Assembly (NCBI RefSeq): GCF_037055355.1
Contig: NZ_CP146350.1
Span: 2,441,001-2,505,000, forward strand
DNA from: Streptomyces sp. DG1A-41
Lineage (GTDB): Bacteria; Actinomycetota; Actinomycetes; Streptomycetales; Streptomycetaceae
Direction: 5' to 3'
Length of the DNA stretch: 64,000 bases
The notes below the pieces were generated by a model, which saw only the letters and a program-made list of their open reading frames with translations, did not search any database and was not told the DNA's origin. Of this stretch, positions 51,310 through 64,000 are shown piece after piece; within the stretch, counting starts at the first letter, position 1; each line of letters opens with the position of its first letter. Made by a program: the position numbers and the translations under genes.

Positions 51310-52071
51310 TCACAGCGCGTCCAGCGCGCTCACCTTCCACCCGTCGCCGGTGCGGTCCATCGTCATCCGCACCCGGTTCAGGTCCACGCGGGACCCCGAG
51401 ACCTGCGTGCTCTGGGTGACCTGGTTGACGAAGAGCAGGACCACGACCTTGTCGGGGGAGGCCGAGACGACGGAGCCGGGGGCTGCGACCCTCGCCTTCA
51501 CCACGCCGTGGTACTTCTCGGCCGTCGGGGCGACCACGGTCTTCGTGGTCTTGCCGTACTCGTCGCGGAAGCCGCCGGTCAGGTGGGCGCGGGCCTTCGA
51601 GAAGTCCTTGTCCAGGTGGCGGTAGTCGTAGGACAGGACGATCGGGGCCGCTTTCCGGGCGGCCGCGAGCGCCTCGGTCCGGGCCGTCTCCGTCAGGCGG
51701 CCGTCGCGGTACTGCCATCCCAGGGCGGCGAGCGCGGCCAGGCCGATGACGAGCAGGGCGGCCAGGACCAGGGTGAGCAGCCTCCGACGGCCGCCCGGGC
51801 CGGGATCGCCCTGTTCTCGTGGCCCGTCCTCCTCGAAGGACTCCGGCGACGGCTCCGGCGGGTCGTCCCAGCCGTCCTTCGGGGCCTCGATGAGGACGGT
51901 GCGTCCGGCGAGCGGCCGCTCGGCCCGGCGCGGGGACTCCTCGTCGCCGGCCGTCGCCGCGCCCGCTTCGCGGTGGCCGCGCTCCGCGCGCTTCGCCGCC
52001 GCGCGGGCGGCCGCCGTGATGGTGCGGCGGGTGCCGGGACCGGGGGCGCGGCCGGTGGTCGTCTTCGGCAT
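51310..52071 (-). CDS. Mce-associated membrane protein
   Basis: The 253-residue protein has a long basic/acidic cytoplasmic region (about 1-95), one membrane helix (RLLTLVLAALLVIGLAALAA) and an outer domain with IVLSYDYRHLDKDFSKARAH, TGGFRDEYGKTTKTVVAPTA and VVVLLFVNQVTQSTQVSG. This is the Mas (Mce-associated, NTF2-like outer domain) family found at the end of mce operons. It probably stabilises the transporter. Last gene of the operon. Confidence 0.85.
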   Translation of the reverse strand: MPKTTTGRAPGPGTRRTITAAARAAAKRAERGHREAGAATAGDEESPRRAERPLAGRTVLIEAPKDGWDDPPEPSPESFEEDGPREQGDPGPGGRRRLLTLVLAALLVIGLAALAALGWQYRDGRLTETARTEALAAARKAAPIVLSYDYRHLDKDFSKARAHLTGGFRDEYGKTTKTVVAPTAEKYHGVVKARVAAPGSVVSASPDKVVVLLFVNQVTQSTQVSGSRVDLNRVRMTMDRTGDGWKVSALDAL

Positions 52072-52119
52072 GGTGGTACTCCTCGTCGGTGCTTGTCGGT
52101 CGGCGGATCGGCCCGTGGA

Positions 52120-52608
52120 TCAGCCGACGAACTCGACGTCGGACGTCAGCCAGCGGCCGTCCTTGTGCACGAGGTCGAGCTGGAGCCGGTACGTGCGCGC
52201 CTCTCCCTCGGGCACGGCGGTGTTGGTCACCTTGCTGTCGGCGACCACCAGCACACGGGCCGAGTCGTCGTCGGAGCGGACGATGCCCGCCTCCAGGACC
52301 TGGCCTTCCGACACGGACTTGTTCTGGGCCACCAGCTTCGTCAGCTGGTCCGTCTGCGCGGTGAACTGCTTCTTGAAGTCGCCGGTCGCGCCCGCCAGGA
52401 CGTTCGCGCTGTCGCGGTCGTAGTGCCGGTAGTCGAGGGAGGTGAAGTTCAGTGCCGACTGGCGGGCCGCGGCCAGGATGCCCTGGCGTCGTTGGTCCGC
52501 CTCGCGCTGTTGGTAGACGCCGAAAGCCAGCCAGAGGGACAGCGCTGTGGTGATGACGGTCGCCGCCACGAGTCCTGCCGTCATCGCTCCGGGGCGCACC
52601 GGCCTCAT
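52120..52608 (-). CDS. Mce-associated membrane protein, smaller paralogue
   Basis: The 162-residue protein (ATG 52608, overlapping the mceF stop as ATGA) has one helix (MTAGLVAATVITTALSLWLA) and an outer domain with SALNFTSLDYRHYDRDSANV, LAGATGDFKKQFTAQTDQLT and ALVVADSKVTNT-like sequence (VLVVADSKVTN). It has the same architecture as the next gene, so the two are paralogues that may act as a pair. Confidence 0.85.
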   Translation of the reverse strand: MRPVRPGAMTAGLVAATVITTALSLWLAFGVYQQREADQRRQGILAAARQSALNFTSLDYRHYDRDSANVLAGATGDFKKQFTAQTDQLTKLVAQNKSVSEGQVLEAGIVRSDDDSARVLVVADSKVTNTAVPEGEARTYRLQLDLVHKDGRWLTSDVEFVG

Positions 52609-53882
52609 GCCATGGGGCCAACGAGCAGCCATTGCCACGACTCCTTTCCGAACGCGGCCTGCTGGCCGCCCGTCGAGCCGATCTCGACGTTCTTTCCGTC
52701 CGGGCCGGTGGTGGTGCCGGTCTCCGGGTCGTACGGGGTGACGTACGTCGCCTGGTTCGCGCCGCCGTCGGCTCTCGACGCGCCCGGGGCGTTCTGCGCG
52801 CCCCGTACCGACGACTCGCTGCCGCGCGGGAGCGAGCAGCGGGCGCCGGTGTTCGCCTCGCGGGTGCTGGTGTCCGCGGGGTCGCGGCGTGCCGTGCCGT
52901 ACCCCTGGGTGCAGGCCGGCGGGTCGTCGGCGTTCAGCACCAGGCCGAAGTGGGTGGTGCCGTCGCCCGGGACGACGGTGTAGCTGCCCGCGACCGTCAG
53001 CGGGAAGGTGACCAGGGCCTGCTCCACCCCGGGGAGGCGGGCCAGCGTGACCTGGCCGCCGCTGATCAGGTTGGCCAGCAGGACCGACAGCTCCGGCCCG
53101 GTCGACTTCAGCAGCGAGTTCAGCTCCTGCGCCGCCGGCCTCGCGTTGCCGATCAGCTTGCGCAGGTCCCCGTCGCTGGCCTTCAACTGGGCCGAGAGCG
53201 CCGCCAGATCACGCGCGAACGACTTGATCGACGACCCCTGGTCGGCCTGCGTCTTCAGGACCTTCCGTGAGTCCTCGATCAGGCCGATCGTCTCCGGCAG
53301 CGCCTCGGACGCCGACTCGACCAGGGTGTTGCCCGAGTCCACCAGGCGGCCCAGGTTCGGGCCGGTGCCGGCGAAGGCCTTGCCCAACTCGTCGACCGTG
53401 ACCCGTAGGTCGTCCTTGCCGACCGAGTTCACCAGGCGGTCCAGGCTGAGGACCATGTCCGTCGTCGGCAGCGGCACCCGCGTGCTCTCGCGCGGGATCG
53501 TGCTGCCGTTCAGCAGGTACGGGCCGTTCGAGGTGCGGGGCTGGAGGTCGACGTACTGCTCGCCCACCGCCGAACGGTTCGCCACCACGGCCAGCGTGTC
53601 CGCCGGGATGCGCGGCGCCCCGTCCTTGATGTCGAGCGCGACCGAGACCCCGTCCGAGCCGGTCAGACGCAGTGCGCCGACCTTGCCCACGGGCACCCCT
53701 CGATACGTGACCTCGGCACCGGCGAAGACGCCCCCGGAGTCGGCGAAGTCGGCCCGCACGGTGTAGCCGCGGTCCAGGACCTCGTCCACCAGGCCCGTGT
53801 ACTCGGCGCCGACGTACGACACACCCAGGGCGGTGATGGTGGCGAAGGCGATCAGTTGCGCCTTGACCGTACGCGTGATCAC
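52605..53882 (-). CDS. mceF: MceF subunit of the lipid importer
   Basis: The 425-residue protein starts at a GTG that overlaps the mceE stop (GTGA). It has one N-terminal helix (QLIAFATITALGVSYVG) and an MlaD/MCE domain (about 35-115; VRADFADSGGVFAGAEVTYR, GVPVGKVGALRLTGSDG). A helical needle region follows, and a Cys-containing C-terminal tail with ACTQGY and GARCSLP. MCE hexamers form a tunnel for lipids between the membrane and outside. Its gene order at the end of the six supports the F assignment. Confidence 0.88.
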   Translation of the reverse strand: MITRTVKAQLIAFATITALGVSYVGAEYTGLVDEVLDRGYTVRADFADSGGVFAGAEVTYRGVPVGKVGALRLTGSDGVSVALDIKDGAPRIPADTLAVVANRSAVGEQYVDLQPRTSNGPYLLNGSTIPRESTRVPLPTTDMVLSLDRLVNSVGKDDLRVTVDELGKAFAGTGPNLGRLVDSGNTLVESASEALPETIGLIEDSRKVLKTQADQGSSIKSFARDLAALSAQLKASDGDLRKLIGNARPAAQELNSLLKSTGPELSVLLANLISGGQVTLARLPGVEQALVTFPLTVAGSYTVVPGDGTTHFGLVLNADDPPACTQGYGTARRDPADTSTREANTGARCSLPRGSESSVRGAQNAPGASRADGGANQATYVTPYDPETGTTTGPDGKNVEIGSTGGQQAAFGKESWQWLLVGPMA

Positions 53883-55198
53883 GGCTGGACCCCCTTCAGC
53901 ATCAGCTCGGCGAGTTCGAGGTTGATCCCCTCGGGCCAGTCGCCCCCGGTGCGGTGGCCGCTGGAGCCGTAGCCGGCGGTGCACACGGGTGGGCACAGCG
54001 GGTCGTCGCCGCCCGAGGGGGCTGACGGGGCCGACGGGGCCGACGGCACGCCCGGGCTGCTCGGCAGCGCGGAGGGCGTCGGCACACCCGGCACGTCCGG
54101 CACGTCCGGCACGTCCGGGAGGTCCGGTACGTCCGGCAGGCCCGGGGGCTCGGGAAGCCCGGGTCCCCGGGTGCCCCCGCTCCCGCCGCCCGGCTCGTCC
54201 GTCAGGTTGCCGTAGATCCCGGCCAGATCGAGGTCCGCCGTGACGTGCAGGTTGACGTAGTCACCCTTGATGGCGTCCACCACGTTGCGCGGGAACGGGT
54301 ACGTCGTCAGCAGCTCAAGGGAGTTGGGCAGGTCGCTGCCCGCCTTGTTGAGCTGTTGCAGGATCGGCCGCAGCTGCTTGAGGTTGGCGACCGTGTCGTC
54401 GTGCGAGGCGTTGATCACCTTGGTGCCGGTCTTGCCGAGCTTGGACAGGGCGGTGAGCATCCTCGTGAGGTCGCGGCGCTGGTCGGCCAGGATCTTCAGG
54501 GCGGGCGGCATCGTGTCGACGGCCTCGGCGATCGTCGTCTTCTCCTTGGCCAGCCGTTTGGCCAGCCGGTCCACGGCCTTCAGCGCGCGGACGATGTCCT
54601 GGCGCTGGTCGTCCAGGCCGCCGATGAAGGTGTCGAGCTCCTTGAGCAGGGACCTGACCCGGTTCTCCCGGCCCTCCAGGGCCTTGTTCAGCTCCGTGGT
54701 GATCGTCTTGAGCTGGGCCACGCCGCCGCCGTTGAGCAGGGCGGACAGCGCGGACAGCACCTCCTCGACCTCCGGGTTGCGGCCGCTGCGGGACAGGGGG
54801 ATCACATCACCGTCGCCGAGCCGGCCGACCGGCGTGCCCTCCAGCGGCCTGGACAGCGCCACGTACTTCTCGCCGAGCATGCTGGTCTGCCGCAGCTCGG
54901 CGATGGCGTTGGCGGGCAGCTTCACCGAGTCGGCGACCCGGAGGCGGACCCGCGCGTGCCAGCCGTTCAGCTCCACCTTCTCCACCGCGCCCACGGTGAC
55001 GTTGTTGACCTTGACCGCCGACTGCGGAACCAGGTCGAGGACGTCGCGGAACTCGACGGTGACGTGGTAGGCGTGGCCGTCGGCGGCGGCTCCGCCGGGG
55101 AGCGGGACGTCGTACCAGCCGTTGAACTCGCAGCCGGACAGCAGCAGCGTTCCGACGGCCGCCCACGCGACGGCCCCGCCCTTGCGCAGTGGTCTCAT
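53879..55198 (-). CDS. mceE: MceE lipoprotein subunit (LprK-like)
   Basis: The 439-residue protein has a lipoprotein signal (AVAWAAVGTLLLSGC), as expected for the E subunit. The MCE domain covers about 45-125 (YHVTVEFRDVLDLVPQSAVK, VNNVTVGAVEKVELNGWHAR). After the helical region comes a Pro-rich tail of repeated VPD units (LPDVPDLPDVPDVPDVPGVP) and a Cys-containing end DDPLCPPVCTAGYG. The ATG at 55198 overlaps the mceD stop. Membership in one operon is shown by overlaps on both sides. Confidence 0.9.
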   Translation of the reverse strand: MRPLRKGGAVAWAAVGTLLLSGCEFNGWYDVPLPGGAAADGHAYHVTVEFRDVLDLVPQSAVKVNNVTVGAVEKVELNGWHARVRLRVADSVKLPANAIAELRQTSMLGEKYVALSRPLEGTPVGRLGDGDVIPLSRSGRNPEVEEVLSALSALLNGGGVAQLKTITTELNKALEGRENRVRSLLKELDTFIGGLDDQRQDIVRALKAVDRLAKRLAKEKTTIAEAVDTMPPALKILADQRRDLTRMLTALSKLGKTGTKVINASHDDTVANLKQLRPILQQLNKAGSDLPNSLELLTTYPFPRNVVDAIKGDYVNLHVTADLDLAGIYGNLTDEPGGGSGGTRGPGLPEPPGLPDVPDLPDVPDVPDVPGVPTPSALPSSPGVPSAPSAPSAPSGGDDPLCPPVCTAGYGSSGHRTGGDWPEGINLELAELMLKGVQP

Positions 55199-56310
55199 GC
55201 CCTCGCCCCCAGGATTCCGCCGAGGGTGCGGTCGACCGTGCCGGTGACCGCGGTGCCCTGGGGCACTTCGGGCAGGGAGTCGAAGAGGTCCCTCAGGTCC
55301 TTGCAGTCGGTCTTCTCGCCGGTCGTCTTCAGGATCGAGCACAGCAGCGACGCCGGATCCTGCGGATGGTCGGGGTTGTTGCGGGTGTCGAGGGTGCCCG
55401 CGGAGGGGTTGTAGGCGTTGTGCAGGTTCGACATGCCCGTCGGCGCGACCTCCAGCAGCTCCTCCAGCGCGGCGCGTTGGGTGACGAGCACCTTGGTCAC
55501 CTTGCTCAGGCCCTCCACGTTCGAGGTCAGCGACTTCTTGTTCTTCTTCACGAAGGCGGACACGTCACCGAGCGCCGTGCCGAGGTTCTTCAGCGCCGCC
55601 GCCAGGTCCTCGCGCTCGCCCGCGAGTTGCTCGGCGACCTTGGCGAGGCTGGTGTTGAACGACCGCACGCTCTTGTCGTCCGCCGCCAGCGCCGCCGTGA
55701 ACACCTGGAGGTTGCGGACCGTGCCGAACAGGTCCGTGCGGCCGTCGGAGAGAGTCGTGACCGCCTCCGAGAGGTCCTCGACCATCTGGTGGACGTTCTT
55801 CCCCTGGCCGTCGAGGTTGTCGGCGCTGACGCCGAGCAGCCGTGACAGGGCACCGTCCTTGTTGGCGCCCTTGGGGCCGAGCGCCTCGGCCGTGGTGTGC
55901 AGGCTGTCGAAGACGCGGTCCAGTTCGACCGGTACGGCCGTGCGCGACTCGGGGATCTCGTCCCCGTCCCGCAGCACCGGACCGCTCCGGTACACCGGCA
56001 GCAGTTGCACGTAGCGGTCGCTGACCACGGAGGAGTTGATGATCGCGGCCTGCGCGTCCGCCGGGACCTTGCGGCCGGAGTCGTACTCCAGCTCCACCCG
56101 CACCCGGCCGCCCTCCGGCGTGATCTTCTTGACCTCGCCGATCCGCACGCCCAGCACACGGACGTCCGAGCCGGGGTAGATGCCGACGGTGCGGGGGAAG
56201 TACGCCGTGACGCGGACCGGCTCGGTCCGCGGCCACAGGACGTAGGCGAGCGCGGCGACCAGGGCCAGGGCGGTCAGCAGGGCCAGGGGCTTCGTCGGGC
56301 GGTTGTTCAC
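55195..56310 (-). CDS. mceD: MceD subunit of the lipid importer
   Basis: The 371-residue protein has one helix (LALLTALALVAALAYVLW), an MCE domain (about 30-105; VTAYFPRTVGIYPGSDVRVL, GVRIGEVKKITPEGGRVRVE) and a long helical part (KNVHQMVEDLSEAVTTLSDG). It ends with two Cys (LLCSIL, KTDCKDL). A GTG at 56310 overlaps the mceC stop. Shorter than mycobacterial MceD, which has a long Pro-rich tail. Confidence 0.88.
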   Translation of the reverse strand: MNNRPTKPLALLTALALVAALAYVLWPRTEPVRVTAYFPRTVGIYPGSDVRVLGVRIGEVKKITPEGGRVRVELEYDSGRKVPADAQAAIINSSVVSDRYVQLLPVYRSGPVLRDGDEIPESRTAVPVELDRVFDSLHTTAEALGPKGANKDGALSRLLGVSADNLDGQGKNVHQMVEDLSEAVTTLSDGRTDLFGTVRNLQVFTAALAADDKSVRSFNTSLAKVAEQLAGEREDLAAALKNLGTALGDVSAFVKKNKKSLTSNVEGLSKVTKVLVTQRAALEELLEVAPTGMSNLHNAYNPSAGTLDTRNNPDHPQDPASLLCSILKTTGEKTDCKDLRDLFDSLPEVPQGTAVTGTVDRTLGGILGARA

Positions 56311-57467
56311 TGCGCGCCTCCCGTTCGCGGCACGACCGGGGCGGCGACCAGGTTCTGGACGTAGGAGTCGAACCAGCGGCCATTGCCCAGGGTGTTGGTG
56401 AAGACCCGCACGTAGGGGGCCAGGAGCTTGATGCTCCGGTCCAGGCTGGATTGGTTGCGTTCGAGCATCTTCACCACGGTGTTGAGGCCCTTGAGCGCGG
56501 GCCCGATCTCCTTCTCGTTGTCCTGGACCAGGCCGGAGAGCTGGATGCCGAGCGCGGCGGAGGTCTTCAACAGCTTGTGGATCGCCGCACGCCGCTTGCT
56601 GATCTCCTGGAACAGCTTGTCGCCGTCCTTGACCAGGGCGGTGAAGTCGCCCGACCGGTCGGCGAGTACTCCCGTCACGCCGTTCGCATGGTCGAGGAGC
56701 TCCCTGAGGGCCTTGTCGCGCGAGGCCACCGTCCGGGAGATCTCGGACAGGCCCTTGATGGACGCCCGTACTTCGGAGGGGGAGTCCTCGAAGGTCGTCG
56801 AGATGGTGTCCAGGGCCTTCGCCAGCCGGTCGGTGTCGACCTGCTCCGTCGTGGTGGTGAGATCGCTGAACGCCTGCACGACGTCGTAGGCGGGGACGGT
56901 CCGCTTCAGCGGGATCTCGCTGCCGGGCTCCAGCCGGCCCCGCCCCTCGGGGTGCAGGGCGAGGTACTTCGCGCCGAGGATCGTCTTGACCCGGATCGAC
57001 GCGCCGGTGTCGGTGCCGAACTCCGGCTCTCCCTTGATCTTGAAGGTGACCTTGACGTGGTCGCCGTCCAGGTCGACCTCCTCGACCTTGCCGACCTTGA
57101 CCCCGGCGATCCGCACCTCGTCGCCCGGCTTGAGACCGCCCGCCTCCGCGAAGGCGGCGCTGTACCTCTCGCCGTCGCCGATCACCGGCAGGCGGTCGGC
57201 GTTGAACGCGGCCACGGTCAGCAGCGCGAGGACGGTGAGTCCGACGGCGCCGATGACGACGGGGTTGCGCTCGCGGAAGGGGCCCAGGTGCGGGCGGCGG
57301 ACGCGGGGAAGCCGTATGCGGGGCGGCTCGACGCGCACCTTCATCAGCGGTTGCCGGCGGGGCCGGCGGCGCGGCAGGAGCCGCACCTTCGGCAGCCGTA
57401 CTCTCGGCAGCCTCGGCGGCTCGACGCGCACGTGGAACATCGGCTCGGGGCGGCGCTTACGGCTCAT
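56307..57467 (-). CDS. mceC: MceC subunit of the lipid importer
   Basis: The 386-residue protein has an unusually long, Arg/Pro-rich cytoplasmic leader of about 70 residues (VRVEPPRLPRVRLPKVRLLP and a near copy VRVEPPRIRLPRVRRP), then one helix and the MCE domain (YSAAFAEAGGLKPGDEVRIA, GVKVGKVEEVDLDGDHVKVT). ATG 57467 overlaps the mceB stop. The duplicated basic leader is not usual for MCE proteins and may contact membrane lipid heads or the ATPase. Confidence 0.88.
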   Translation of the reverse strand: MSRKRRPEPMFHVRVEPPRLPRVRLPKVRLLPRRRPRRQPLMKVRVEPPRIRLPRVRRPHLGPFRERNPVVIGAVGLTVLALLTVAAFNADRLPVIGDGERYSAAFAEAGGLKPGDEVRIAGVKVGKVEEVDLDGDHVKVTFKIKGEPEFGTDTGASIRVKTILGAKYLALHPEGRGRLEPGSEIPLKRTVPAYDVVQAFSDLTTTTEQVDTDRLAKALDTISTTFEDSPSEVRASIKGLSEISRTVASRDKALRELLDHANGVTGVLADRSGDFTALVKDGDKLFQEISKRRAAIHKLLKTSAALGIQLSGLVQDNEKEIGPALKGLNTVVKMLERNQSSLDRSIKLLAPYVRVFTNTLGNGRWFDSYVQNLVAAPVVPRTGGAQ

Positions 57468-58501
57468 GCTCCACACCTCGCCCTCGCCACGTGCATCTCG
57501 GGCGTGAGCACCTGCTTCGTCTTCGGCAGCACGATCCGGCCGTCGAAGTCGCACAGGTAGAAGTTGAACCACGAGCCGTAGGACGCCGTCCCCGTCAGCT
57601 CGTTGAGCTTGTTCGGCAGCCGCTTCAGCACGCCCTCCACGGTCTTCTCGTTGTCGTTCAGCGTCCCGGTGAGCTCGGTCAGTTCCGCGATGTCGTCCTT
57701 GAGCGGCGGACGCGCGTCCTTCAGCAGGCCCGAGGTGGCCTCCGTCAGATCGCCGATGCTCACCAGCGACTCCCCGATGGGCTTGCGGTCGGCGGACAGG
57801 CCCGAGATGAGCCGGCGCAGCTGCTTGAGCAGTCCGGAGAAGCGGGCGCCTCGCTTGTCGAGCGTCTCCAGCACGGTGTTGAGGTTGTCGATCACGGAGC
57901 CGATCAGCTTGTCGCGGCCGGCCAGCGTCGTGGTGAGCGACGCCGTGTGCGTGAGCAGGCTGTTGACGGTGCCGCCCTCGCCCTGGAGGGTCTTGATGAT
58001 CTCGGTGGCGAGCTGGTTGACGTCCTTCGGGCTGAGCGCGGCGAACAGCGGCTTGAAGCCGTTCAGCAGCGCGTTCAGGTCGAGGGCGGGCTGGGTGCGC
58101 GCGAGCGGGATCGTGCCGCCGGGGCGCATCCGGGTGCCGTCGCCGACGCCCTCGGTCAGCGCGACGTACCGCTGCCCGACCAGGTTGCGGTAGCGGATGA
58201 CGGCACCCGTGCTGGTGAGCAGGGGCCGGTCCTGGCTGACCGTGAAGGTGACCTCGGCCAGCGTCCGGTCCTTGATCCGGATGCCCTCGACCTCGCCGAC
58301 CCGCACTCCGGCCACCCGGATGTCGTCGCCCTCCTCCAGGCCGGTGACGTCGCTGAAGACCGCGCGGTACTCGTGCTCGGGGGTGAAGGAGATGTTCACG
58401 ATCGTGGCGGCGAGCAGGGCCGTCGCCAGCACCGTCACCAGCGCGAAGAGACTGAACTTGATCATCGGAGCGGCGGTCTGCCGGGCTCCCGTGGTGCTCA
58501 T
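57464..58501 (-). CDS. mceB: MceB subunit of the lipid importer
   Basis: The 345-residue protein has one helix (KFSLFALVTVLATALLAATI), the MCE domain (about 40-120; YRAVFSDVTGLEEGDDIRVA, GVRVGEVEGIRIKDRTLAEV) and the MceB-typical middle DLNALLNGFKPLFAALSPKD. The C-terminus has the FYLCDFDGRIVLP and VARARCGA cysteines. It overlaps genes on both sides by four bases. Confidence 0.9.
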   Translation of the reverse strand: MSTTGARQTAAPMIKFSLFALVTVLATALLAATIVNISFTPEHEYRAVFSDVTGLEEGDDIRVAGVRVGEVEGIRIKDRTLAEVTFTVSQDRPLLTSTGAVIRYRNLVGQRYVALTEGVGDGTRMRPGGTIPLARTQPALDLNALLNGFKPLFAALSPKDVNQLATEIIKTLQGEGGTVNSLLTHTASLTTTLAGRDKLIGSVIDNLNTVLETLDKRGARFSGLLKQLRRLISGLSADRKPIGESLVSIGDLTEATSGLLKDARPPLKDDIAELTELTGTLNDNEKTVEGVLKRLPNKLNELTGTASYGSWFNFYLCDFDGRIVLPKTKQVLTPEMHVARARCGA

Positions 58502-59739
58502 GCGACGCTCACCGCCGTCCCGCGCGCCATCGGCCCGAACAGCAGCGTCGCGACCGGCGGCACCTCGTCCGCGGGCACGCCCAGCACCGGCGCCACGAGC
58601 GAGCCGACGGCCCGCTGCTCGGCCCGGGTGGCGGAGACGCCGAGCGGGCCGCCCGAGGTCGCACCCGCCTTCTTGGAACCGTCGTCGAGGTGGGTGCCGG
58701 GCGCCGGCACCACAGGGTGCGGCAGGCCACGGCAGTTGGGTCCCGACCGCTCGCCGTAGCGCGGTTCCTCACCCGGTTGGTACGCGCCCTGCGCGCGTAC
58801 GACCTCCAGCGTGATGTGCATCTTGCCGCCCCGGAACGCCTCCTCGGACGCCTTCTCCTGCCGGACCAGGCCGGCCAGCAGGCAGGGGTACTGGGGGGAG
58901 TAGCGGGCGAACAGCTCCAGCGTGGGGCGGGAGACCTGGCCGAGGGTGATCAACCGGTCGCCGTTGGCGTCGAGGAAGTCCTCGGCGGTGCCCGCGACGG
59001 TGGCCGTGCTCTTCAGCGCCGCCGCCAGCCGGTCCTTCTGCTCGACGATCGTGCGGCTGGTGGTGACGGTGTTGCGCAGGATCTCCATCAGGTCGGGCGC
59101 CGCGTCGCCGTACATCTCGGCGACGTCGGCGAAGCGTGCGATGTCCTCTTTCAAGGACGGCAGGTGCGGGTTGAGGCGGCGCAGGTAGGCCTCCAGTCGC
59201 GTGAGGTTGTCGCCGATCCGCTCGCCGCGGCCGTCGAGGGCGGTGGCGAACGCGGAGAGCGTGGCGTTGAGCTTGCCGGGCTGCACGGTCCGCAGCAGCG
59301 GCAGCAGGTCGTTCATCAGCTGCTGGAGCTCGATGCCGACACGGGTGCGGTCCTGGGTGATGACGTCACCGGCCCTGATGGGCCGGGCGGACGAGCGGGC
59401 GGGCGCGACCAGGTCGACGTACTTCTCGCCGAACAGCGTCTTGGGCAGCAGGCGCGCGTGCACGTCGGAGGGGATGTGGGCGACGTGCTCCGGCTTGAGC
59501 GCGATGTCGAGCGTCGCCTTCGTCCCGTCGGCGTGCACCTCGCGCACCTCGCCGACCAGCAGCCCGCGCAGCTTGACGTCGGCCCGTGGATCGAGCTGGT
59601 TGCCGAGGCTGTCGGCCTCCAGTGTGATCCGCACGACCGGCGTGAACACCTGCTGGTAGACGGCGACGGACAGGGACAGCAGCAACGCGAGCACGGCGAT
59701 GAAGACGACACCGTACAACCGCAGTCTCAACACCTTCAT
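58498..59739 (-). CDS. mceA: MceA subunit of the lipid importer
   Basis: The 413-residue protein has one helix (YGVVFIAVLALLLSLSVAVY) and the MCE domain (about 35-115; VVRITLEADSLGNQLDPRAD, VKLRGLLVGEVREVHADGTK), then helices with LMNDLLPLLRTVQPGKLNAT. The ATG at 59739 gives a short basic leader MKVLRLRLYG; it lies 8 bp after the yrbE1B stop. A longer frame from 59955 overlaps yrbE1B and is rejected. Confidence 0.9.
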   Translation of the reverse strand: MKVLRLRLYGVVFIAVLALLLSLSVAVYQQVFTPVVRITLEADSLGNQLDPRADVKLRGLLVGEVREVHADGTKATLDIALKPEHVAHIPSDVHARLLPKTLFGEKYVDLVAPARSSARPIRAGDVITQDRTRVGIELQQLMNDLLPLLRTVQPGKLNATLSAFATALDGRGERIGDNLTRLEAYLRRLNPHLPSLKEDIARFADVAEMYGDAAPDLMEILRNTVTTSRTIVEQKDRLAAALKSTATVAGTAEDFLDANGDRLITLGQVSRPTLELFARYSPQYPCLLAGLVRQEKASEEAFRGGKMHITLEVVRAQGAYQPGEEPRYGERSGPNCRGLPHPVVPAPGTHLDDGSKKAGATSGGPLGVSATRAEQRAVGSLVAPVLGVPADEVPPVATLLFGPMARGTAVSVA

Positions 59740-59747
59740 ACGGCGGC

Positions 59748-60563
59748 TCACCCCGCGATCCGAACGGTCGTGCTGGCGCCCCAGATCGCCAGCGACAGGA
59801 AGAAGTCCAGGACGTTGATGGCCACGATCGAGGTCCGCACCGCGCGGCCCACCGCGACGCCGACGCCCGCCGGGCCGCCGCTCGCGTAGTAGCCGTAGAA
59901 GCAGTGCACCAGGATGATCAGGACGGCGAAGACCAGCACCTTCCCGAAGGACCACAGGACGTCCGCCGGTGGCAGGTACTGCTGGAAGTAGTGGTCGTAG
60001 GTGCCCGTGGACTGCCCGTAGTAGCCGGTGGTGATGGTGCGGGCGGCCAGGTACGAGGACAGCAGGCCGATCACGTACAGCGGGATCACCGCGACGAACC
60101 CGGCGATCATGCGGGTCGTCACCAGGAACGGCAGCGAGGGCACGCCCATCACTTCGAGCGCGTCGGTCTCCTCGCTGATCCGCATCGCGCCGAGCTGGGC
60201 GGTGAACCCGGCGCCGACGGTCGCTGAGAGCGCGAGCCCGGCCACCAGCGGGGCGATCTCACGGGTGTTGAAGTACGCCGAGAGGAACGCCACGAAATTG
60301 GAGGTGCCGAGCTGGTTGAGCGCGGCGTACCCCTGCAACCCCACTTCCGTGCCGGTGAAGAACGACAGGAAGGCGATCACGCCGACCGTGCCGCCTACCA
60401 CGGCGAGCGCGCCCCGGCCGAAGCTCACCTCGGCGAGCAGCCGCAGGATCTCCTTCTTGTAGCGGCGCAGAGTGCGCCCTGTCCACGCCAACGAGCGGCC
60501 GTAGAAGGTGAGTTGGGTGCCCAGCGCCTCGAGGGACTTCAGTGGGCGGTCGATGAGTCTCAT
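59748..60563 (-). CDS. yrbE1B: YrbE1B/MlaE-type permease of the mce operon
   Basis: The 271-residue protein has five or six membrane helices and the MlaE family core FNTREIAPLVAGLALSATVG, AGFTAQLGAMRISEETDALE, VMGVPSLPFLVTTRMIAGFV. The EE-DAL(E) loop is the presumed contact with the ATPase. It pairs with the permease upstream, three bases away, to form the membrane core under the MCE tunnel. Confidence 0.92.
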   Translation of the reverse strand: MRLIDRPLKSLEALGTQLTFYGRSLAWTGRTLRRYKKEILRLLAEVSFGRGALAVVGGTVGVIAFLSFFTGTEVGLQGYAALNQLGTSNFVAFLSAYFNTREIAPLVAGLALSATVGAGFTAQLGAMRISEETDALEVMGVPSLPFLVTTRMIAGFVAVIPLYVIGLLSSYLAARTITTGYYGQSTGTYDHYFQQYLPPADVLWSFGKVLVFAVLIILVHCFYGYYASGGPAGVGVAVGRAVRTSIVAINVLDFFLSLAIWGASTTVRIAG

Positions 60564-60566
60564 CGG

Positions 60567-61337
60567 CTAACCCCTCTGGGGGACGACCTGGAAGTACACC
60601 GCGGTCATCACGAAGTTGGTCACGAACAGCAACATGAAGGTGATCACCACCGACTGGTTCACCGCGTCGCCCACCCCCTTGGGTCCGCCCTTCGCGGTCA
60701 GCCCCTTGTAGGAGGCGACGATCCCGGCGATCGCGCCGAACACCAGCGCCTTGACCTCGGCCGCCCACAGGTCGGAGAGCTGGGCGAGGGTGGTGAAGGA
60801 GGCCAGGTAGGCGCCCGGAGTGCCGTTCTGGAGGACGACGTTGAAGAAGTAGCCGCCCGCCACGCCGACCACCGACACCAGGCCGTTGAGCAGCACCGCC
60901 ACCAGCATCGACGCCAGCACGCGGGGGACGACCAGCCGGTGGATGGGGTCGATGCCCAGCACCTGCATCGCGTCGATCTCGTCGCGGATCTTCCGTGCCC
61001 CGAGGTCGGCGCAGATCGCCGTGCCGCCGGCGCCCGCGATCAGCAGCGCGGTGACGATCGGCGAGGCCTCGCGCAGCACGGCGAGCACGGAGGCGGCCCC
61101 GGAGAAGGACTGGGCGCCGAGCTGCCGGGTCAGGCTGCCGATCTGGAGCGCGATGACCGCCCCGAACGGGATGGAGACCAGGGCCGTCGGCAGGATGGTG
61201 ACGCTCGCGACGAACCAGGTCTGCTGGATGAACTCCCGTGCCTGGAAGGGCCGTCGGGGGATCGTCCGGACGACGTCCAGCGCCATCGCGAAGAGGCTGC
61301 CCGAATGCCGCAGCGCTCCGACCGGTGACAGGCTCAT
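60567..61337 (-). CDS. yrbE1A: YrbE1A/MlaE-type permease of the mce operon
   Basis: The 256-residue protein has the same MlaE core: VLREASPIVTALLIAGAGGT, AICADLGARKIRDEIDAMQV, LGIDPIHRLVVPRVLASMLV. It lies between the ATPase (4-bp overlap) and the second permease. With YrbE1B it makes the heterodimeric channel. Confidence 0.92.
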   Translation of the reverse strand: MSLSPVGALRHSGSLFAMALDVVRTIPRRPFQAREFIQQTWFVASVTILPTALVSIPFGAVIALQIGSLTRQLGAQSFSGAASVLAVLREASPIVTALLIAGAGGTAICADLGARKIRDEIDAMQVLGIDPIHRLVVPRVLASMLVAVLLNGLVSVVGVAGGYFFNVVLQNGTPGAYLASFTTLAQLSDLWAAEVKALVFGAIAGIVASYKGLTAKGGPKGVGDAVNQSVVITFMLLFVTNFVMTAVYFQVVPQRG

Positions 61338-62281
61338 GCGCCGGCCACCGCCTTCTGGTGGAGCTGGTCCTCGCGCCGTGCGATCGCCTGCCAGCGGGGC
61401 GGCCGGGTGATGCCCGGTCCCGGCAGCAGGCGGGGAGTCAGAGCCTGGCTGCCGGGAGACTGTGTGCTCTCGCCGTCGTCGCCGAGGGCGGCGAGCTCCT
61501 GCTCGACCTGGGCTGCGTCCTTCTCCTCCGCCATGCCGATCGGGCCCTGCATCCGGCCGTTCAGGAACTGCCGTACGACGGGCTCGTCACTGGTCAGCAG
61601 CTCTTCGCGCGGCCCGAACATCACGAGCTCGCGGCGGAACAGCAGCCCGATGTTGTCCGGCACCTGGCGGGCCGAGGCGATGTCGTGGGTGACGATCAGG
61701 AAGGTCGCGTCGATCTGGGCGTTGAGGTCGACGATGAGCTGGTTGAGGTAGGCGACGCGGACCGGGTCGAGGCCGGAGTCGGGCTCGTCGAACAGGATGA
61801 TCTCCGGGTCGAGCACCAGGGCCCGGGCCAGCCCGGCCCTCTTCCGCATCCCGCCGGAGATCTCGCCTGGCAGCTTCTCCTCGGCGCCGATCAGCCCGAC
61901 CATGTCCATCTTCTCCAGCACGATGCGCCGGATCTCGCTCTCGGACTTGCGGGTGTGCTCGCGCAGGGGGAAGGCGATGTTGTCGTACAGGTTCATCGAG
62001 CCGAACAGCGCCCCGTCCTGGAACAGCACGCCGAAGAGCTTGCGCACCTCGTACAGGTCGTGCTCGCGGAGCTTGGTGATGTCCCGGCCCTGGATCGTGA
62101 TGGAGCCGCGCTCCGGCTTGAGCAGGCCGACGAGCGTCTTGAGGAACACCGACTTGCCCGTGCCCGAGGGCCCGAGCATGACCGATACCTCCCCGGCGGG
62201 CAGCGTCAGCGAGACGTCCTGCCAGATGACCTGGTGACCGAAGGACTTGGTCAGCCCTTCCACACAGATCTCGACACCCAT
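61334..62281 (-). CDS. MceG/MlaF-type ATPase of the mce operon
   Basis: The 315-residue ATPase has Walker A MLGPSGTGKSVFLKTLVGLL, Q-loop FGVLFQDGALFGSMNLYDNI, signature LPGEISGGMRKRAGLARALV and Walker B EIILFDEPDSGLDPVRVAYL. The C-terminal 60 residues past NGRMQGPIGM are an extension often seen in MceG. ATG 62281 is preferred to GTG 62290 since AAGGG has better spacing. In mycobacteria the ATPase gene lies apart; here it leads the operon. Confidence 0.93.
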   Translation of the reverse strand: MGVEICVEGLTKSFGHQVIWQDVSLTLPAGEVSVMLGPSGTGKSVFLKTLVGLLKPERGSITIQGRDITKLREHDLYEVRKLFGVLFQDGALFGSMNLYDNIAFPLREHTRKSESEIRRIVLEKMDMVGLIGAEEKLPGEISGGMRKRAGLARALVLDPEIILFDEPDSGLDPVRVAYLNQLIVDLNAQIDATFLIVTHDIASARQVPDNIGLLFRRELVMFGPREELLTSDEPVVRQFLNGRMQGPIGMAEEKDAAQVEQELAALGDDGESTQSPGSQALTPRLLPGPGITRPPRWQAIARREDQLHQKAVAGA

Positions 62282-62379
62282 CCGGTCCACCCTTCAGACG
62301 TGCAGCAGCTCCGACATCTGCTCTACGGGGAGGGGCGGGGCGTCCGTCGCTCGAGTGGCGGATTTTTTTCGAGCGGGTT

Positions 62380-62454
62380 TCCGGACGCTTCGGGCGGGCT
62401 TTCGGACGTTACGGGCGAGTTCCGGGCGCTACGGGCGGGTTTCGGGCGCTACGG
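62380..62454. repeat. About 3.5 copies of a 20-bp repeat upstream of the mce operon
   Basis: Units of the type TTCGGGCGCTACGGGCGGGT begin near 62380, 62400, 62420 and 62440 with a few substitutions, and the last overlaps the stop codon of the sigma gene. A run of seven T lies just to the left (62363-62369). The array occupies the space where the mce promoter or leader should be. Confidence 0.65.
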
Positions 62455-63573
62455 AAGCGGGCGCCCCGTGGGCTCGGGGAGCGAGGAGGACGGTGTGGCG
62501 GGACCCTCCGGAGCATCCGGGACCGCCGGGACCGCCGGGACCGCCGTGTCCGTCGGCACGGCGGAGGGCTCCGCCGGCAGGTCGGGGACAGCGGGCTTCG
62601 GGACGTCGGGCACCTGCGGGACCTCGGGCGCGGACACCACGGGCAGCGGCACCAACGGAACCTCCGGAACGTCCGGGACATCCGGAACACCCGGGACATC
62701 CGGGACCTCCGGCAGCGACGGGACGGACAGCGGGAGGAACGATTCACCCCCACCGGCCGGGGAGCCGGCCGCTCCGCGGTCGGCTGCCGCCGCCGTGGGC
62801 TCGTACCCGCGAGGCGCACCTCCCCCGCCACGGCCGTCCGGCCGCAACGTCTCCGCGCCCGGCGAGACGACAGCGGGCCGAGGCTCCGGACCGCCCCCGC
62901 CTCCGCCGCCGTCGAGGGCGTACGGCAGCACGAGCCCTGCCACCGCCAGGGACGCCGCCGTCGAGGCGACCGCCACGGACTGCGCCCTGCCGACTCCGCG
63001 CGGCCGTCCCCACCCGATCAGGAACAGCGCGACCCCGAAGGTGGCCGCCAGCGACTGCCGCAGCGTCCGCCGTGCCCGGGCCAGCAGCGATTCGACGGTC
63101 CGGTAGCTCAGCCCCATCCGGACGGCGACCTGCCCGACGTCGAGGTCCTCCGACTTCAGCCGCAGCGCCTCGGCCTGCCGCGCGGGCAGCTCACCACTGC
63201 GAACGGCCAGCCACTTCGCCTCGGCCCGGTCGCACACCACCTCCTCGACGGGCACCGGACCAGGGGCGATGAGCGTCGGGCTGGTGCGGACCTCGGCCTC
63301 GCGGTTGACCTGCCGGTAGCGGTCGACGCACAGCCGCATCGTCACCGTCGTCAGCCAGGCCGCCAGCCGCTCGTCGTCGAGGTCGGGGCGCTCCGCGGCG
63401 CGCAGCATCGCCTCGTGCACCGCGTCCTCGGCGTCCTCCGCACTCATCGACCTGCGCCGGGCCACCTTGAGCAAATGCTCGCGGTGGCTCCACATGCGCC
63501 GCCAACGGTCGTCGGCGGCGCACCTCTCCGCAGGTGTCTCTGCGGGCATGTCCGCAGGCATGTCCGTCGCCAT
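62449..63573 (-). CDS. ECF-like RNA polymerase sigma factor with a membrane segment and outer Pro-rich tail
   Basis: The 374-residue protein has sigma region 2 (about 28-95; HREHLLKVARRRSMSAEDAE, AWLTTVTMRLCVDRYRQVNR) and region 4 (about 125-180; LPARQAEALRLKSEDLDVGQ, VAVRMGLSYRTVESLLARAR). Next comes a hydrophobic stretch (AASLAVAGLVLPYAL) and about 150 residues of Gly- and Pro-rich tail with EVPDVPGVPDVPDVPEVPLV. ATG 63573 has GAAGGGG upstream. It would be tethered to the membrane. It may control the mce operon 167 bp downstream, but that is inference. Confidence 0.85.
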   Translation of the reverse strand: MATDMPADMPAETPAERCAADDRWRRMWSHREHLLKVARRRSMSAEDAEDAVHEAMLRAAERPDLDDERLAAWLTTVTMRLCVDRYRQVNREAEVRTSPTLIAPGPVPVEEVVCDRAEAKWLAVRSGELPARQAEALRLKSEDLDVGQVAVRMGLSYRTVESLLARARRTLRQSLAATFGVALFLIGWGRPRGVGRAQSVAVASTAASLAVAGLVLPYALDGGGGGGGPEPRPAVVSPGAETLRPDGRGGGGAPRGYEPTAAAADRGAAGSPAGGGESFLPLSVPSLPEVPDVPGVPDVPDVPEVPLVPLPVVSAPEVPQVPDVPKPAVPDLPAEPSAVPTDTAVPAVPAVPDAPEGPATPSSSLPEPTGRPLP

Positions 63574-63629
63574 GAGGGCCCCTTCGCGCTCACCCACCGG
63601 TCTCGTGCTGTCCGGCGGGTGGGGCGACA

Positions 63630-64000
63630 TTACCGCCGAGTATCGGCGGTTGTGGAGGGGGAGGCGGTCATCGAGTCCGCGCTGTTACTGGTCAGAGGGG
63701 CGCCGCCGGGCAGCAGGCCGTCGCCGGGGAGCTCGATGTCCGGGTCCGGGACGGGTAGTTGCGGCTCGTCCGGCTCCGACGGCTCGGTGGCCGGACGGGA
63801 CGGGGTGGGAGCCGGTGTGGCGGGGGGCGACGAGGGGCGGGACGGGGTGGCGGCCGGACGGTCGGAGGGGGTGGGTGCGGCTTTCTCCGGCTTCGAGGGC
63901 GACCGTGAGGGCTCGGGGCGCGCGGGGGAGGACCCGGCGGAGCGGTCCGGCACCACCCGGTGCCCTTCCAGGAAGTACGCGTACCAGGCCCGGACCGTGC
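63630..64000 (-). CDS. Hypothetical protein with Pro/Ser-rich tail, 5' end outside window
   Basis: The frame is open to the right edge and reads TVRAWYAYFLEGHRVVPDRS at the visible start, then about 90 residues rich in Pro, Ser and Thr and ending STTADTRR. WYAYFLEG suggests a folded domain ends where the window does; the tail is likely outside the membrane or a wall-spanning linker. It precedes the sigma factor gene by 56 bp on the same strand. Cannot be named. Confidence 0.65.
   Translation of the reverse strand, partial: TVRAWYAYFLEGHRVVPDRSAGSSPARPEPSRSPSKPEKAAPTPSDRPAATPSRPSSPPATPAPTPSRPATEPSEPDEPQLPVPDPDIELPGDGLLPGGAPLTSNSADSMTASPSTTADTRR
63632..63650. terminator. Hairpin ACCGCCGA-GTA-TCGGCGGT at the end of the last gene
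   Basis: A perfect 8-bp stem begins in the stop codon of the 63630-64000 gene, read on the minus strand. It may weaken transcription into the sigma gene rather than stop it. Confidence 0.4.

Follow-up and report, generated by a model that had tools for sequence, protein, structure and literature searches.

A promoter-like motif links a predicted membrane-tethered ECF sigma factor to an mce lipid-transport operon in Streptomyces

Results

A sigma factor gene and an mce operon predicted to form one regulatory unit

The window analyzed here, a stretch of 64,000 nucleotides from Streptomyces sp. DG1A-41 (contig NZ_CP146350.1, positions 2,441,001 to 2,505,000), carries on its minus strand, in this order, genes for an SLT_2 lytic transglycosylase, a sigma factor of the extracytoplasmic function (ECF) type, an mce-type ATPase, two permeases, the proteins MceA to MceF, and two Mas-type (mce-associated) proteins (Table 1). 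Judged from sequence, this locus probably represents a self-contained unit, a reading to which we assign a probability of roughly 0.8, in which a membrane-tethered ECF sigma factor would act on promoters sharing a common motif and thereby on the mce operon and the transglycosylase gene. The sigma factor very probably drives the mce operon, because the motif precedes both mce and the transglycosylase gene, because it strictly co-occurs with this mce lineage and with the sigma factor, and because copies of it are found away from mce. An earlier note on this DNA had proposed a functional link between the sigma factor and mce from similar repeats in the sigma factor and in MceE. The link itself is strongly supported, mainly by the shared promoter-like motif, whereas no specific support was obtained for the proposal that the sigma factor senses the state of the transporter.

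A promoter-like motif precedes the mce and SLT genes

Alignment of the region upstream of the ATPase gene identified a block CGACGGA, followed by 15 bases and CGTAGA, that was kept in 20 of the 20 loci compared; for the genome-wide search GCA was added and the spacing was fixed (CGACGGA-N15-CGTAGAGCA). In the genome of DG1A-41 the motif was found before mce and before the SLT gene, and three further matches had other spacings. Among the named loci, which are the best 80 of 140 relatives found and all belong to Streptomyces, it preceded the mce ATPase gene in 80 of 80, with a 15-base spacer every time; 59 of these loci had an SLT match, and at 52 of them the motif stood before that gene as well. 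Over 94 distinct mce and 60 SLT instances the two blocks were nearly invariant and the spacer was less conserved, and a median of 32 bases separated the motif from the first ATPase codon that could be aligned. Two conserved blocks at a fixed spacing just upstream of start codons suggest a -35 and a -10 element more than the binding site of a repressor. Matches of 27 bases, with a spacer one base shorter, were rejected as coding-like background, since the same site was found in genomes that carry this mce lineage and in others that lack it.

The motif was strictly distributed with the mce lineage of the window. The window's MceD matched 53 of 121 Streptomyces genomes, 21 of them with a copy of at least 71% identity (clade A) and 33 with a copy of at most 50% identity (clade B); one genome (G006) carries both. 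CGACGGA-N15-CGTAGAGCA occurred in 21 of the 121 genomes, which were exactly the clade A set. Each of the 21 clade A genomes carries a sigma gene next to mce, in one case seen as no more than a tail fragment where the contig ends; none of eight clade B loci, covered with about 4 kb of sequence upstream, has such a gene, and a weak sigma match at one of the eight (L110) was discarded, as it lay in another kind of protein. In a sample of 150 genomes of the family the motif was found in 13, exactly those with a sigma match of about E 5e-75 or better, and six genomes with weak sigma matches (E 5e-21 to 4e-25) had no motif. The reversed motif pattern yielded no match in the genus sample and one in the family sample.

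Copies of the motif were also detected away from the mce promoter. In G113, which has no SLT gene at its mce locus, a variant with CGTAGAGAG in place of CGTAGAGCA preceded an SLT orthologue about 220 kb away. In four genomes (G141, G164, G225 and G278) the motif preceded a gene for a secreted-looking protein with BNR-like repeats, which was located 6.7 Mb from mce in G141 (the only far copy), at a distance of about 13 kb from the mce motif in G225, and next to the sigma gene in the other two genomes. A Pfam scan of two of these four proteins gave matches near the cut-offs, one above and the others below. Where sigma and mce were rearranged (G151 and G278), the mce promoter still had the motif, and in G164, where both are found on different contigs, each contig carried one. 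As side observations, a motif-preceded, BNR-repeat-like, secreted-looking protein was seen at the loci L161, L166, L221 and L223 (about 606 aa in L221 and L223), and L157 of G278 holds two same-family sigma genes close together near the rearranged mce, with the motif-bearing BNR-like gene between them.

Domain structure and predicted topology of the sigma factor

The sigma open reading frame (ORF) spans 62449-63630, and the likely start at 63573 (MATDMP, with GAAGGGG before it) gives a protein of 374 aa. Only regions 2 and 4 are present (PF04542, PF08281 and TIGR02937, all above cut-offs), identifying the protein as an ECF sigma factor, and a carbohydrate-binding module at its C-terminus was not matched by Pfam. 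Over 98 loci the likely transmembrane segment has a mean Kyte-Doolittle value of 1.86; it is preceded by a loop with a net charge of +2.1 and, ahead of this loop, by a weaker hydrophobic segment (mean 1.09). Hydropathy and charge suggest that the tail is located outside the membrane, because it contains fewer basic than acidic residues (5.6 vs 9.5 per 100); should both hydrophobic segments span the membrane, the tail would instead lie on the inner side. The AlphaFold model of the protein is weak (mean predicted local distance difference test, pLDDT, 55.8).

A conserved element precedes the sigma gene; initially read as the same kind of promoter as the mce motif, it turned out to be a different, sigma70-like one. 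A loose sigma70-like pattern was found at this position in 86 of 100 loci, 63 of the 69 with an SLT match and 23 of the 31 without. Its presence in most loci, including those without SLT, suggests that the sigma factor is made steadily and is controlled after translation. At two loci (L095 and L236) part of the sigma start is repeated in the stretch before sigma, which also includes N bases; this probably reflects a faulty assembly.

Conservation of the locus

The operon shows the actinobacterial mce layout, with ATPase, two MlaE permeases and six Mce proteins in order. Pfam covered MceA, MceE and MceF of the six Mce proteins, and MceB, MceC and MceD were named from gene order and mutual similarity; a Pfam scan of the two Mas-type proteins gave no match. 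The SLT protein reached 33.3 bits with PF13406 (cut-off 24.3), indicating a catalytic SLT domain, and MltB models matched it below their cut-offs, none above. Conservation of the neighborhood was counted over 67 of the 80 named loci, those with nearly full flanks, and genes 3' of mce mostly lay beyond the flanks compared. The sigma match and the mce genes from ATPase to MceE were present in 67 of 67 loci, MceF in 62 and SLT in 54, and each other ORF of at least 150 aa from the window's own neighborhood recurred in at most 10, barring frames that overlap genes of the block. The sigma factor was the sole regulator among the widely conserved ORFs of this size. A tandem repeat of about 20 bases in about four copies (62373-62454) separates the stop codon of sigma from the mce motif, a region that is unlike in most of 19 aligned relatives.

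Table 1. Features of the sigma-mce locus (window positions) and the evidence for each
Feature	Position	Strand	Evidence or remark
ECF-type sigma factor with predicted C-terminal membrane anchor and tail	62452..63573	-	Sigma70_r2 and Sigma70_r4_2 above Pfam cut-offs
Likely transmembrane segment, sigma residues 199-217	62923..62979	-	Hydropathy; separate helix in low-confidence AlphaFold model
Predicted outer tail of sigma	62452..62922	-	Array core 62657-62715; no secondary structure in weak AlphaFold model
sigma70-like element TCCACA-N18-TAATGT	63627..63656	-	Upstream of sigma gene; overlaps SLT stop codon; putative promoter
Promoter-like motif CGACGGACGCCCCGCCCCTCCCCGTAGAGCA	62319..62349	-	Upstream of mce operon
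Second motif copy	64738-64768	-	Before SLT gene, past window end
SLT_2 lytic transglycosylase, 3' part	63630..64000; gene runs past window to about 64703	-	Pfam
mce-linked ABC ATPase (Mkl/MlaF type)	61334..62290	-	PF00005; MlaF best NCBIfam match, below its cut-off
YrbEA (MlaE permease)	60567..61337	-	PF02405
YrbEB (MlaE permease)	59748..60563	-	PF02405
mceA to mceF	52605..59745	-	MceA, MceE, MceF: PF02470 and PF11887
MceE lipoprotein with internal triplet linker	53879..55198	-	MlaD and Mce4_CUP1 domains; TIGR00996 above cut-off
MceE triplet array	54081..54139	-	Codon-pattern match; tandem count above shuffles
Two Mas-type (mce-associated) genes	51310..52638	-	Named for location and occurrence as a pair (cf. 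Mas genes, PMC1810536)

Triplet arrays in the sigma tail and in MceE

MceE contains GLPDVPDLPDVPDVPDVPGVP and the sigma factor LPEVPDVPGVPDVPDVPEVP; both arrays, about 8.5 kb apart, consist of tandem V/L-P-D/E/G triplets. The VPD-type repeats described in the earlier note are thus present where noted, and in strict form they are restricted to these two genes: V-P-[DE]-V-P-[DEG]-V-P, in any codons, gave five matches in the 8,991,014 bases of the genome, two in MceE, three in sigma and none elsewhere, and the reversed pattern gave none in the whole genome. A looser V/L pattern matched 17 times (6 times when reversed), 9 times in sigma and MceE and 8 times elsewhere; two of these eight fell into one further ORF and six looked, by eye, like single chance matches or wrong frames. 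The further ORF (L059/L060; 375 aa from stop to stop) has a signal-peptide-like start and carries LPDLPDLPDFPDLPDLPGLP at about 5693111-5693169 of the same genome, the only other real-looking array among the looser-pattern matches; this exported-looking protein has an LPD array but no match to the promoter-like motif at its site. Among the 12 proteins of the window's sigma-mce block, runs of at least three triplets were limited to sigma (longest 9) and MceE (7), and short runs of 3 or 4 were found in 40 of 80 MceD proteins of clade A. The arrays are not a recent DNA duplication, because their valine codons differ (GTG/GTA in MceE vs GTC/GTT in sigma).

The MceE ORF spans 53879-55342, and the likely start gives the protein of 439 aa listed in Table 1. 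MceE had been thought to end in the array, but CPPVC and a C-terminal helix segment, LAELMLKG, come after it, so that the array forms an internal linker; both elements and several prolines of the linker are invariant in 23 aligned close relatives. The lipobox-like start would place the MceE tail outside the membrane. The AlphaFold model of MceE was unusable (mean pLDDT 31.5). Runs of at least three triplets were found in 79 of 80 clade A MceE proteins (the window's own and 79 from named loci) vs 0 of 32 from clade B, two of which were incomplete at the tail at contig ends; G097, where the contig ends, was left out. Co-occurrence of the two tails across genomes was therefore borne out: sigma factor and MceE array co-occur strictly, but in a contrast between two mce lineages that may go back to a single evolutionary event.

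Triplet runs were also observed in five sigma paralogues with neither mce nor the motif in the stretches compared. The earlier note had taken the same tail on sigma factors without nearby mce genes to speak against its idea. In one of the five, seven triplets follow each other, most of them with T/A instead of D, and the other four have shorter runs (three of 3 and one of 2). A second same-family sigma of the DG1A-41 genome (L037, 7327216-7328220), located away from mce, has a proline-rich tail and no motif in the stretch compared.

Alternative readings of the tails and of the motif

The tails might be nothing but meaningless low-complexity drift in GC-rich genomes, which we regard as unlikely. 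Proline-rich C-terminal regions are described as common in Mce proteins (PMC1810536), and both the lengths and the residues of the tails vary. However, in the 92 of 102 locus entries that were used for tail statistics (five of the others had no recognizable tail boundary, and in five more one of the two genes was missing from the stretch compared; a few species may be represented twice among the 92), tandem triplets exceeded all 50 composition shuffles in 90 sigma and 88 MceE tails. Sigma tails had a mean of 8.99 tandem [VLIA]P-x-[VLIA]P, compared to 0.79 after shuffling, and MceE tails had a mean of 5.66, compared to 0.22. The invariant prolines of the MceE linker also argue against drift; in sigma, invariant prolines are few and stand beside rather than within the array. 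Somewhat less probable still is the reading that the sigma tail mimics the MceE linker, in that both would bind the same wall component or Mce-associated protein and the sigma factor would report assembly or occupancy of the transporter. In this scheme, which is improbable in our judgment, the tail would compete with MceE for the common wall or Mce partner, and unassembled or starved transporters would free the sigma factor to turn on the importer and the wall hydrolase that creates space for it. The confinement of the MceE array to the sigma-linked mce lineage agrees with it, as does the common style of both arrays, given that the last 150 residues of the SLT proteins of the same loci have a mean of only 0.33 tandem triplets. 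All five marker genes were present in 68 of the 92 loci, and there the acidic content of the two tails was correlated (Spearman 0.49 and 0.66 by two measures). This significant raw signal disappeared under independent contrasts, which gave r 0.01 (p 0.92) and r 0.17 (p 0.17) for the 68 loci and r -0.06 and 0.11 once the set had been thinned to 60; pairwise coevolution of the tails was therefore rejected. Among the 45 loci with SLT, the contrasts gave an r of 0.25 (p 0.09) for sigma and MceE, 0.17 (p 0.28) for sigma and SLT, and 0.32 (p 0.03) for MceE and SLT. In addition, arrays occur in an unrelated exported-looking protein and, in shorter form, in half of the MceD proteins, and in the structure of mycobacterial Mce1 the C-termini of MceE have been described to help form the distal portal (PMC9882608), so the two tails may not meet. 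As the contrasts were not significant and an array occurs in a sigma paralogue without mce, a common wall or lipid partner appears unsupported beyond co-occurrence.

Another possibility is that the motif is the site of a different regulator, with the sigma factor being merely a linked passenger. The assignment of the motif to the sigma factor is based on sequence comparison, and the motif could be read by a factor encoded elsewhere. Nevertheless, we consider this very unlikely, given the resemblance of the two blocks to -35 and -10 elements, the strict co-occurrence of motif and sigma factor in the 150 genomes of the family, and a conserved block in which no further regulator was found. Several other observations weigh against the unit as we propose it. 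No SLT gene was found in 13 of the 67 loci with full flanks, and 7 of 59 SLT genes had no motif as written within 400 bases. Some motif copies preceded no nameable gene (two in G034 and one each in G113, G123 at a contig end, G151, G278 and L255). Absence of the sigma factor was tested directly in the family sample, and the genus sample was compared by mce lineage. Finally, Pfam (E 0.001) detected no anti-sigma or zinc-finger domain in the sigma factor, and its release by proteolysis is proposed by analogy.

Discussion

We propose that the ECF-type sigma factor would be made steadily and tethered to the membrane by its C-terminal helix, exposing the proline-rich triplet tail on the outside. 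Once freed or unmasked, probably through proteolytic cleavage at the membrane, it would direct RNA polymerase to the CGACGGA-N15-CGTAGAGCA promoters. These would drive the adjacent mce lipid-transport operon and the lytic transglycosylase, which could open the cell wall for the transporter, and in some species also the secreted-looking BNR-repeat protein. Levels of the sigma factor would also rise through transcripts that run on from the SLT promoter. For its tail, the most likely role is that of a stiff, acidic spacer or sensor stalk that spans the wall; it shares its style with the MceE linker, probably through independent origin.

Sigma factors with C-terminal membrane fusions are described for ECF48, ECF52 and ECF53, and ECF52 is presented as having a zinc finger, a proline-rich outer part and a carbohydrate-binding module (available text of PMC8999054 and PMC5826349). 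The sigma factor studied here resembles these groups as an actinobacterial ECF sigma with a C-terminal transmembrane fusion, and ECF52 (SCO4117 of S. coelicolor) also in its outer proline-rich extension, here by hydropathy and composition only; activation by proteolysis has been proposed for such factors. In contrast to ECF52, no zinc finger or carbohydrate-binding module was detected by Pfam, and the gene is linked to mce with a dedicated promoter motif. A model for release may be IutY (ECF243), likewise a single-protein, membrane-held sigma factor, but described from Pseudomonas putida, where it serves in iron signaling, has a true anti-sigma part and undergoes intramembrane proteolysis (available text of PMC8999054). 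The operon itself resembles the mce6 operons of Streptomyces as described by Casali and Riley (2007; PMC1810536), with an Mkl-type ATPase upstream of yrbE and mce and with mostly paired Mas genes near the mce genes; it differs by its sigma factor and MceE array from the other Streptomyces mce lineage sampled here. In PMC1810536 the term 'sigma factor' is mentioned only twice, in a reference title and in a domain legend. A literature search, including the available text of PMC13118837 and PMC5702194, returned no report of the sigma-mce pair or of the motif, and novelty is claimed within the searchable literature.

As membrane-fused ECF sigma factors are already known, what is new here is a putative membrane-anchored ECF sigma factor dedicated to an mce operon. 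To our knowledge, little has been established about the signals that control mce lipid transporters outside the mycobacteria. A dedicated sigma factor with a recognizable promoter would make the mce regulon readable from sequence, and the system would connect lipid transport with the cleavage of peptidoglycan in readily tractable organisms. Since the sigma factor appears to be held at the membrane without the usual zinc-finger anti-sigma domain, the mode of its restraint becomes a testable question.

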